Origin: Microcaldota archaeon
Lineage (GTDB): Archaea; Micrarchaeota; Micrarchaeia; Micrarchaeales; CABMGC01
DNA: 46,991 nucleotides
Direction: 5' to 3'
Assembly: GCA_027334165.1 (NCBI GenBank)
Contig: DAHWXM010000015.1
Location: 77,832 to 124,822 of the forward strand
Under the pieces are notes generated by a model. It saw only the letters and a list, made by a program, of their open reading frames with translations, ran no database searches and was not told the DNA's origin. The position numbers were made by a program, and so were the translations under genes. Position 1 is the first letter of the stretch, and each line of letters starts with the position of its first letter. Shown here one piece after another: positions 13,519-46,991 of the stretch.

Positions 13519-14400
13519 CTACGGGGCATAGTAATTGCTGCTCCACGTCCCCGAATACGAAATCTCCGACGTCACACTTCCATGCGAATTGCCGGAGTAG
13601 TCGCGCGTGTTTCCATTGAGTGGATACCAACCTATTAGGTTATCCAGCATTATCGGGGCCCCACCTATCCCCTCTTGATAAATTGTCTGTACCTCATTGG
13701 CTGTGAGGGACGTGTTGTACACCTGCACATTCGACACGCCTCCAACCAGATTCGAGCCGTCCTTGCCTTTTCCTATGTACATGTATCCCGTGCTTATTAT
13801 ATTGGAAGGCACGCCACCGCTGCCTCTGTACAACTGTCCATCTACTCCACCGTAAACTGTCTGCCCGGTCGAATTGCTGGTAAGTGCTGCAAAGTACCAT
13901 GTTCCCTTCGAAGTGCCTCCTGGAACAGGAGAGCACACCTGGCTGCACCATGGGTCGCTTTCTATTGTTGGATTTCCACAGTCAACTCCGAGCCTGAAGC
14001 TGAAGTAGTTGCCTCCCCCACACGCCGTGTTGTTGCTCCCGTACGCTAGCAGCATTATGTCTGGATTATTATTGTAGTAGAACCACATTGTTACGGTGAC
14101 GGGGTTCGCGCCCTTCGGAAGGTCCGACATGTTTATCCTAACGTAAGAATTTCCGTTGAGCTGCGCAACGTATCTTGGCAGTTCCCCATTGCACGTGCCT
14201 TGCAGAGATAAGTACGCTGTTGTGCCCGCCCCATACGGCCTGTTAACCGTGCACGATCCTGGCTGCGCCTTCGGCGCGAAGTTCGATGGGTTGAAAACCC
14301 CCAGTGCGTAAAGCATTCCAAGGACAACAACGATGGCGAGTATGGCCCATCCGTAAGTAATGAGATACTCCATCGCCGACTGAAGTTTGCTCGTTCGCAT
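13519..14400 (-). CDS. Class III signal peptide + LamG/ConA-like surface protein (copy 1)
   Basis: MRTSKLQSAMEYLITYGWAILAIVVVLGMLYALGVFNPSNFAPKAQPGSC...EGIGGAPIMLDNLIGWYPLNGNTRDYSGNSHG. Confidence 0.8.
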   Translation of the reverse strand: MRTSKLQSAMEYLITYGWAILAIVVVLGMLYALGVFNPSNFAPKAQPGSCTVNRPYGAGTTAYLSLQGTCNGELPRYVAQLNGNSYVRINMSDLPKGANPVTVTMWFYYNNNPDIMLLAYGSNNTACGGGNYFSFRLGVDCGNPTIESDPWCSQVCSPVPGGTSKGTWYFAALTSNSTGQTVYGGVDGQLYRGSGGVPSNIISTGYMYIGKGKDGSNLVGGVSNVQVYNTSLTANEVQTIYQEGIGGAPIMLDNLIGWYPLNGNTRDYSGNSHGSVTSEISYSGTWSSNYYAP

Positions 14401-14428
14401 ACTCTTCTTCCTCACACTGCTTTTATAT

Positions 14429-15307
14429 TCATGGCGGTGCATAGCTCCCTGTCCAGGATCCCGCATACTCCACGTTGGCCGGCATTCCGCCGTTGTTGTT
14501 TCCTGAATAGTCATTAGCATTGCCATTCAGCGGATACCACGCTATCAGGTTTTGCAATCGTATCGGTGCACCCCCAATGCCTTCGCTGTAAATATCATGT
14601 ATCTCGCTTGCCGACAGAGATGCATTGTACTCCTGGACATTTGCAAGGTCCGCTATTAATCCCTGCCCGTTGCACGTGCCCCCGATTTTTCCTAGGCATC
14701 CGAAGAATGCGGGGTACACAACGTTCGCAGCGCTGCTTATCCTTATGCCATTCAAGTATATGGAAAGGGAATTCGAGCTGTTCCACCGGGCCACCACGTT
14801 GTAAAATGTCGTTGGAGAAAATGGGTTCACTTTCACGTTTGTGTTGTACTGCACATCGGCGTCACTAAACACCCTAAAATAAAAGATCACGCTGCCGCTT
14901 CCACCCCCTGTGGCTATGAGATCGAAGTCGTTTGCAGCACCGTCGTTGCCCATCGACCAGATGAACTGCCTCCCCGATCCGGTTCCTTCGTACCACACGC
15001 TTATTGTGCCATTGGTCGGGTTCATGCCGCTATTGTTTATGTCAGAGATGGAGGAGCGGCCGCTAAAATTTGCAACGTATTGCGGCAATTCCCCTCCACA
15101 CTCCCCTTCAAGATTTAAGTCGTAGCTTGTTCCGGGGCCGTTCGGCCTTAGCACCTGGCACGATCCTGGCTGCGCCTTCGGCGCGAAGTTCGATGGGTTG
15201 AATATGCCGAGCGAGTACAGCACTCCGAGGACGACAGCGATGACCAGTATGGCCCAACCGTACGTCATCAGGTATTCCATTGCGGATTGGAGCTTTTGTC
15301 GTCGCAT
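14429..15307 (-). CDS. Class III signal peptide + LamG/ConA-like surface protein (copy 2)
   Basis: MRRQKLQSAMEYLMTYGWAILVIAVVLGVLYSLGIFNPSNFAPKAQPGSC...EGIGGAPIRLQNLIAWYPLNGNANDYSGNNNGG. Confidence 0.8.
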   Translation of the reverse strand: MRRQKLQSAMEYLMTYGWAILVIAVVLGVLYSLGIFNPSNFAPKAQPGSCQVLRPNGPGTSYDLNLEGECGGELPQYVANFSGRSSISDINNSGMNPTNGTISVWYEGTGSGRQFIWSMGNDGAANDFDLIATGGGSGSVIFYFRVFSDADVQYNTNVKVNPFSPTTFYNVVARWNSSNSLSIYLNGIRISSAANVVYPAFFGCLGKIGGTCNGQGLIADLANVQEYNASLSASEIHDIYSEGIGGAPIRLQNLIAWYPLNGNANDYSGNNNGGMPANVEYAGSWTGSYAPP

Positions 15308-37266: not shown

Positions 37267-38172
37267 ATGCGGATGACATTACGTTTTGCGCTATTTGCAA
37301 ATGGAGTACCATCCCCTAAAAGGCTGCGGTGCCACAAGGCTCAGTCCGCCATGGAGTACCTGATGACGTACGGGTGGGCCATACTGGTCATCGCTGTCGT
37401 CCTCGGCGTTTTGTATTCGCTAGGCATATTTAGCCCTTCAAATTTTGCTCCAAAAGCAACCCCTGGTTCGTGTCAGGTTTTCCGTCCAAACGGCCCGGAT
37501 ACGAATTACGATATTAACCTCGAAGGAACGTGCGGCGATGAACTGCCCGAATACGATGCGCAGTTCAATGGCGGTAGTGCTTACATATCGTTGTCTTCGC
37601 CTGCTTCCTCAAAGAGCTACACGCAACTCAGTATTTCAGCGTGGATCACTAATCCTGGCAATGCGTCCAGGTACGAGATTATGAATTTTTACGGTTTTTA
37701 TCTCAACGTGCAATCAGGAAAAATATGCTTTTTTGTAAGCAATGTCAACTCCGGATATCTGTGTTCCTCTTCTACATTAAGACCAGGCTACAACTTCATT
37801 GCCGCGACGCTGAGCAATAGCACAGAAACAGTTTATGTAAATGGAGAGTCTTCTGGCATCGCCTCTTATGGTTTAGGAATTGGAACAGGATCTCCGGATG
37901 GTACGATAGGCGTGTGCTCCTACTGCGGTAACATATACTACTTCAATGGCCAGATTTCAAACATACAGGTTTACAACACCTCGCTCACGAATTCATCAAT
38001 AAAGGCGCTATACTACGAAGGGATAGGCGGAGCGCCAGCTATGCTACAGAATATTGTTTCATGGTGGCCCCTCAATGGCAATGCGAATGATTATAGCGGC
38101 AACAATAACAACGGCGTGCCGACAAATGTTGTGTACACCGGTTCTTGGCAGACAGAATATACACCAACATGA
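37267..38172 (+). CDS. Class III signal peptide + LamG/ConA-like surface protein (copy 3)
   Basis: KAQSAMEYLMTYGWAILVIAVVLGVLYSLGIFSPSNFAPKATPGSC...EGIGGAPAMLQNIVSWWPLNGNANDYSGNNNNG; start codon uncertain. Confidence 0.8.
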   Translation: MRMTLRFALFANGVPSPKRLRCHKAQSAMEYLMTYGWAILVIAVVLGVLYSLGIFSPSNFAPKATPGSCQVFRPNGPDTNYDINLEGTCGDELPEYDAQFNGGSAYISLSSPASSKSYTQLSISAWITNPGNASRYEIMNFYGFYLNVQSGKICFFVSNVNSGYLCSSSTLRPGYNFIAATLSNSTETVYVNGESSGIASYGLGIGTGSPDGTIGVCSYCGNIYYFNGQISNIQVYNTSLTNSSIKALYYEGIGGAPAMLQNIVSWWPLNGNANDYSGNNNNGVPTNVVYTGSWQTEYTPT

Positions 38173-46059: not shown

Positions 46060-46112
46060 AAAAAACACAATACTTATAATACACGTCAACGCTTTAAATT
46101 GTGCGTGTGACC

Positions 46113-46772
46113 ATGGAGATAGAGCGTCTCTTCAACGGAGTGTTCAGGATAGACAACAAGCTTGCCACAATCAACTTGGCTCCTGGAATAAAGGTTTATG
46201 ACGAGGAGCTGCTTCGCGACGGAAAAATCGAATACAGGACATGGAATCCGTATCGGAGCAAGCTCGCTGCGGCGATGCAGAAGGGCCTAAAGCACATGGA
46301 GATCAAGGACGGAGACAGCGTCCTGTATCTCGGTGCGGCAACAGGCACGACCTGCAGCCACATAAGCGACATAATAGGTGACAAGGGCAGCCTCTTCTGT
46401 ATAGAGATATCCGAGAGGAGCATGCGAGACCTGCTGAAGCTCTGCGAACACAGGAGCAACGTCCTACCTATGCTGCAGGATGCAAGGAACGTTTCAACGT
46501 ACGGAAAGGACGTTGGCACAGTGGACGCGATATACGAGGACGTCGCCGCGCCAGACCAGGCAGAGATGCTGCTGTACAACAGCGAACTGCTGAAGAGTGG
46601 CGGATTTGCATACGTTGCGATAAAATCGCAGAGCATAGACGTATCCAAGAAACCTACGGAGGTCTACGACGCGTTTATCAAGAAGGTGTCCACGAAGTTC
46701 GCGCTCATCGAGGCAATCAACATCGAACCGTTTGACCGGATGCACTTGTTCGTGGTATTCAAGAAGCGCTGA
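46113..46772 (+). CDS. flpA: Fibrillarin-like rRNA/tRNA 2'-O-methyltransferase
   Basis: YRTWNPYRSKLAAAMQKGL, VLYLGAATGTTCSHISDIIGDKGSLFCIEISERSMRDLL; GTG starts at 46101/46107 possible. Confidence 0.92.
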   Translation: MEIERLFNGVFRIDNKLATINLAPGIKVYDEELLRDGKIEYRTWNPYRSKLAAAMQKGLKHMEIKDGDSVLYLGAATGTTCSHISDIIGDKGSLFCIEISERSMRDLLKLCEHRSNVLPMLQDARNVSTYGKDVGTVDAIYEDVAAPDQAEMLLYNSELLKSGGFAYVAIKSQSIDVSKKPTEVYDAFIKKVSTKFALIEAINIEPFDRMHLFVVFKKR

Positions 46773-46866
46773 CCCCTTCGGGACACAGCCAAAATGTTTC
46801 CCAAGGTAAATTCCTCTGAACCCGCTGCTTTAATGTATGTCTTTTTAAGCGTGAAGCTCGAGATAC

Positions 46867-46991
46867 ATGCCTATTGGGGATGAGGAGTTGCAAGACCTTA
46901 AGAGGATTGGGCACACGAAACTTTTTGGAAAAGTTTCACCAAAAGCGCAGTCCGCCATGGAGTACCTGATGACGTACGGGTGGGCCATACT
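46867..46991 (+). CDS. Class III signal peptide protein (copy 4), N-terminus only, truncated by window end
   Basis: MPIGDEELQDLKRIGHTKLFGKVSPKAQSAMEYLMTYGWAI; last 44 nt identical to copy 3. Confidence 0.75.
   Translation, partial: MPIGDEELQDLKRIGHTKLFGKVSPKAQSAMEYLMTYGWAI

Follow-up and report, generated by a model that had tools for sequence, protein, structure and literature searches.

The window, by which we mean the whole 46,991-nucleotide stretch analysed here, ends inside what is very probably a truncated pilin-LamG gene. The 44-nt class III signal peptide cassette of this gene is identical, letter for letter and on the same strand, to the cassette within a complete pilin-LamG gene upstream (Table 1), as the preliminary description had stated. 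These are the sole two occurrences in the window, compared with none expected in shuffles of it, and the window otherwise contains no copy of the 44-mer at ≤3 mismatches. The edge cassette had been counted as the fourth of its class, and the count holds: besides the copy at 37342, two members lie in tandem on the reverse strand. The identity was also said to be cut only by the window edge; this edge proved to be the end of contig C9 (124822 bases) of the source assembly (G000, 816 kb in 21 contigs), so the right boundary is not biological. The left boundary is real, with the base 5' of the 44-mer being t at 37341 and g at 46947. An A/T-rich stretch resembling a TATA box (46841-46849) suggests the ATG at 46867 as the start of the truncated gene.

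Table 1 Features of the window that bear on the edge cassette and the pilin-LamG family.
Feature	Position	Strand	Remarks
Truncated pilin-LamG gene, 5' end	46867..46991	+	27-aa leader MPIGDEELQDLKRIGHTKLFGKVSPKA precedes cassette
44-nt cassette, class III signal peptide codons Q S A M E Y L M T Y G W A I (L)	46948..46991	+	ends at contig end
Palindrome GAAACTTTT-TGG-AAAAGTTTC in edge leader	46917..46937	+	perfect, 9 base pairs
Fibrillarin gene	46101..46772	+	Pfam PF01269, E 1.8e-75; anchor placing the truncated pilin
Complete pilin-LamG gene	37267..38172	+	301 aa from ATG 37267; Laminin_G_3 E 2.5e-14; carries identical cassette
Identical 44-nt cassette within the complete 37267 gene	37342..37385	+	exact match to edge copy
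Family member	14429..15307	-	cassette start 15289; LamG domain
Family member	13519..14526	-	cassette start 14382; LamG domain; in tandem with the 14429..15307 gene

What lies beyond the contig end can be judged from the sister species (G005), where fibrillarin is followed by an intact 303-aa LamG pilin and then by a Zn-ribbon gene. The pilin at the place of the edge copy shares its signal segment and scores 64.8 bits for Laminin_G_3 (cut-off 27.6), which bears out the reading of the edge cassette as the start of a class III signal peptide/LamG protein. In G000 the Zn-ribbon gene starts at base 1 of contig C3 (C3:1-810). Because G005 has a LamG pilin between fibrillarin and Zn-ribbon, the end of C9 and the start of C3 flank one gap, and judging by this gene order the remainder of the edge LamG gene most likely lies in it. 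A pilin frame after fibrillarin was not seen in the flank examined in the 8 other genomes of the genus, 7 of which have a frame with the same Zn-ribbon-type start after fibrillarin. Two further contigs, C5 and C19, likewise begin within conserved parts of family genes. This is in keeping with a repeated pilin family that breaks the assembly, and serves as a warning that short-read bins can lose such genes at contig ends. Among named relatives, 'Candidatus Micrarchaeota archaeon isolate DBS2-5.bin41' is the nearest to the genome of the window. On contig C8 of G005 (locus L156, about 6137), a 430-aa frame that by eye resembles a TnpB/IS605-type transposon protein lies between the Zn-ribbon and a glucoamylase-like gene.

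A protein search of G000 returned 35 matches, about 20 of which make up a core family of the form QSAMEYLMTYGWAIL...NFAPKAQPGSCQV.RPNGPGT. Core members start with a basic leader that would be cleaved before Q, have E at +5 and continue with ~20 hydrophobic residues, as in RLRCHKA followed after the cleavage site by QSAMEYLMTYGWAILVIAVVLGVLY; in the edge copy, these class III signal features can be read across the first 14 residues past the cleavage site. Alignment of the family shows conservation over codons 1-75, a hypervariable LamG region in columns 76-285 and renewed conservation in columns 286-361. The modular layout of these genes starts with a short leader of basic character, followed by a class III signal/transmembrane segment from QSAMEYLMTYGWAIL, a linker, the hypervariable LamG part and a conserved C-terminal tail. 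Laminin_G_3 was detected in 20 of the 21 members scanned (E <= 0.001), with the 37267 gene scoring 54.1 bits, above the curated cut-off. It was the only Pfam model to match the members, no class III signal or pilin model being hit, and in an NCBIfam scan the weak hit to TafC fell well short of the model's cut-off.

The family is widespread, being present in 60/60 relatives searched with 4 to 52 matches per genome (E <= 1e-5). A degenerate cassette is found in 57 of the 59 genomes of the family-level group, and several of these 59 contain identical 53-base cassettes within a single genome; pairs of this kind are therefore frequent in the lineage. An identical 53-base cassette is also shared by two different genera (G070:C4:377-429 and G073:C2:31795-31847). 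The genome-wide count of copies suggested by the preliminary description was run on G000: a 36-base core is exact at the two window positions, with 7 more places within 3 mismatches (9 in all). When all synonymous codons were allowed, 26 places with <=3 mismatches were found. An exact scan of GTDB contigs with the 44-mer gave no match, in a collection from which records of G000 or near-identical genomes may be excluded.

The identical pair was then considered against the family as a whole. Pairwise mismatches over the 44 nt among 20 members rise smoothly (1 pair at 0, 3 at 1, 7 at 2 and 13 at 3). Shuffling codons within columns gave at least one identical pair in 99/2000 trials (5%; mean 0.05 pairs), which places the exact pair in the tail of this smooth distribution. 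Its exact identity is mildly unusual and is by itself no proof of a recent event. Hence the recent duplication or conversion that had been proposed is not shown by this pair, although homogenised 5' ends within genomes are seen at the level of the family, and the 44-nt identity is explained by a homogenised 5' pool together with codon preference.

This homogenisation is apparent from trees of 42 genes from one species pair (G000 and G005), in which changes of species label were counted and compared with shuffled labels. Codons 1-30 require only 2 changes (shuffled mean 13.5) and codons 1-75 require 4, whereas the LamG part requires 15 (shuffled 13.6) and is fully mixed; the C-terminal block requires 8. 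Silent identity relative to the expectation from codon usage follows the same division, lying above it in the 5' part, equal to it in the middle and at or just above it in the C-terminal block. For codons 16-30 it amounts to 0.47 within G000 and 0.54 within G005, compared to 0.36 between the species and 0.34 from codon usage. The within-minus-between difference for these codons is 0.14, where codon usage alone gives 0.013. Species-specific silent codons are found at Ile17 (ATC vs ATT), Gly28 (GGC vs GGA) and Pro32 (CCG vs CCT), with Ile17 being ATC in 15/19 genes of G000 and ATT in 23/26 of G005. A third genome (G017) displays a smaller 5' silent excess over expectation.

Eight genes could be matched between G000 and G005 through the LamG part. 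In 6 of the 8, the 5' silent sites are less like those of the match than like the mean of own-genome paralogs, and all 6 LamG-matched pairs with near-saturated silent sites have a 5' silent identity to the match below the own-genome paralog mean. Paralogs within a species are thus more alike than cross-species matches over codons 1-75, but not over the LamG part. One pair (C20:12422 and G005:C10:84236) is ~75% identical over the first ~70 codons and 85-100% identical over most of the LamG part; the jump in identity near codon 70 falls where the conserved 5' module ends. Tests for runs of identity at silent sites only gave P = 0.0015 for G005 and, for G000, P = 0.0065 with 16 genes and 0.20 with all 19. 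These were used instead of the all-site tests, as the latter (P < 0.001) include uneven protein constraint. The silent identity of pairs correlates weakly between successive 15-codon blocks, hence conversion tracts would be short or old. From these sequence comparisons, we read the pattern as concerted evolution of the 5' module within each genome, with a LamG diversity that would be older than the species split. No account of this pattern was found in literature on the TafC fimbrial protein or on archaeal surface/pilin gene conversion.

Surroundings of the LamG-matched pairs were compared by blastn over stretches of up to 20 kb. They match for C9:15656, C20:12422 and C14:6850 and do not match for C9:115173, C9:66362, C8:25524 and C6:8513, with array sizes differing by species. 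Upstream of the 37267 pilin lies a gene whose relative in G005 (40% identity) adjoins a different pilin gene (G005:C14). Genome G042, a single contig from the same order, contains a tandem array at C1:580000-599999 in which a 1974-base pilin unit is 100% identical over >5 kb. Separately, the stretch G000:C14:6698-7600 is 92-99% identical to a G005:C6 pilin against a background of ~65-70%, and from its sequence looks like a recent exchange between species. A 98% match (C14:8713-9851) was dropped as a candidate transfer, as its broken frames look like rRNA.

The preliminary description considered the 5' regions preceding the two cassettes unrelated. This is correct for the two copies relative to each other, but the edge leader is not unique: the 30 bases before the edge cassette match those at G000:C2:4309 in 28/30. 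The palindrome in this leader recurs, in the same or a related form with compensating arm changes, before five other G000 pilins and before G005 pilins, and was not found elsewhere in the genomes searched at that stringency. Several palindromic leaders contain a QSAME-like stretch also 5' of the palindrome, and at G005:C7:6570 two such units follow one another. An insertion element composed of palindrome and repeated QSAME was considered but not adopted, since few copies are preceded by it and no enzyme is linked; the palindromic leader may merely be an inherited basic leader. As for the shared block being a cassette, its left edge lies at the predicted cleavage site, for which rapid evolution of the leaders is a simpler explanation than a recombination boundary.

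Taken over the family, the edge cassette is very probably the 5' end of one of ~20 modular LamG pilins, broken by assembly and homogenised at the 5' end by recombination between paralogs. Several other origins for the repeat were weighed against this. If the two window copies were recent duplicates, or one had recently been converted by the other, identity at 44/44 positions including all silent sites would follow directly, as would the Ser codon TCC of the edge copy, which is that of the 37342 copy where other palindromic-leader genes have AGC. However, column shuffles yield such a pair in 99/2000 trials, other pairs differ by only 1 or 2 bases, and the LamG part of the complete 37267 copy is nearest to G005:C8:18680 and not to a gene of its own genome, so that a recent event confined to these copies appears rather doubtful. 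Protein constraint and codon preference acting alone, with occasional exact matches as a by-product, could conceivably account for the pair, though we would not favour it. The smooth distribution of pairwise differences is consistent with this, as is the between-species silent identity of codons 1-15 (0.467 vs 0.387 random), which indicates that some positions use one and the same codon in the two species, as Ile14 does with ATA. Yet constraint alone leaves unexplained the species-specific silent consensus and the combination of species-grouped 5' trees with mixed LamG trees, and codon usage covers just 0.013 to 0.019 of the within-minus-between difference. Across the entire family, this reading is already disfavoured.

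An assembly artefact, in which the 37342 cassette copy was wrongly joined to the contig end, is improbable. The contig does stop exactly in the shared 44-mer, where assembly graphs often break and a wrong extension is possible, but the edge leader is in frame with the cassette and a pilin gene also starts at the corresponding position behind fibrillarin in G005. More improbable still is a mobile gene cassette for which a dedicated site-specific recombinase or element would use the palindromic leader as its site. Such a cassette would be in keeping with LamG-matched genes occupying non-matching places in the two species, and with a palindrome whose arms have changed yet remain paired, that precedes pilin cassettes alone in the genomes searched and that has the QSAME stretch repeated around it. 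Against this, the palindrome precedes 6 of about 21 copies, other leaders being unrelated, no recombinase gene could be tied to the family and homologous recombination accounts for the arrays.

Ordinary homologous recombination between paralogs, in the form of gene conversion and of unequal exchange with the conserved ends as anchors, is the mechanism we infer from the sequences. Within a genome, it would homogenise the first ~75 codons, with the diversity of the LamG parts being maintained by selection. A further role for the 5' module, and to a lesser extent the C-terminal block, as anchors for swapping LamG parts between expressed pilin genes at different places is on balance unlikely. If true, it would let a host-associated archaeon continually produce new surface adhesins from a genome that is small and fixed. 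Two histories within the same genes of one family, in a 0.8 Mb genome, present a testable case of archaeal pilin diversification.

A comparison can be made to pilE/pilS of Neisseria gonorrhoeae, where a conserved N-terminal part is likewise combined with variable parts in a family shaped by gene conversion (PMC4877100). In the gonococcus, silent copies give variable parts to one expressed gene (PMC4877100), unlike the present family, in which almost every copy is a complete open gene and homogenisation is seen in the conserved 5' part. Silent donors of the pilE/pilS type, with no start or promoter, were not found among the members, which appear as complete frames with their own leaders. The one frameshifted member is G000:C10:7115, in which a 1-base loss changes the cassette from GGGTGGGCC to GGGGGGCC; it could be a pseudogene, a phase variant or a sequence error.

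A dependence on partner-cell contact is assumed for many DPANN archaea, and to our knowledge little is known of the variation of their surface binding proteins. For the LamG pilins, a prepilin peptidase would cleave before Q, after which the hydrophobic helix would enter a filament or stay in the membrane, and the LamG part would bind sugars or proteins on the surface of partner cells; both the filament and the binding are predictions from the genes. A prepilin peptidase (A24, PF01478) is encoded at G000:C7:33175-33447 (E 1.3e-8, above cut-off), whereas the 82%-complete G005 genome yielded none. Archaeal class III type IV pilins (PMC4858521) share with the present family the basic leader, Q at +1, E at +5, ~20 hydrophobic residues and an A24 peptidase; the present proteins differ in matching no Pfam class III model and in being putative filament subunits.

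A close architectural parallel is found in Streptococcus sanguinis, whose PilC and PilB are modular type IV pilins, with PilC carrying a concanavalin A-like lectin domain (PMC8179133). Both systems join a class III signal pilin module to a bulky binding domain, that of PilC belonging to the superfamily of the LamG domain found here, but the S. sanguinis system is bacterial, with few copies and no homogenised 5' end reported (PMC8179133), while ~20 paralogs occur here in a small archaeal genome. The ARMAN-2-related Mia14 is also a DPANN archaeon with many LamG genes; the Mia14 paper describes an expansion of LamG-like jellyroll proteins, some linked to type IV pili loci, and proposes that they act in partner-cell contact (PMC5498576).

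The model of the 37267 protein shows an N-terminal helix and a beta-sandwich (mean pLDDT 66.9), with the signal helix and core strands confidently placed. Its best matches among solved folds, at 14-20% identity, are pentraxin and other lectin-like beta-sandwiches including receptor-binding parts of toxins. On the basis of this predicted model, the toxin-domain matches indicate a shared fold and are no sign of a toxin.
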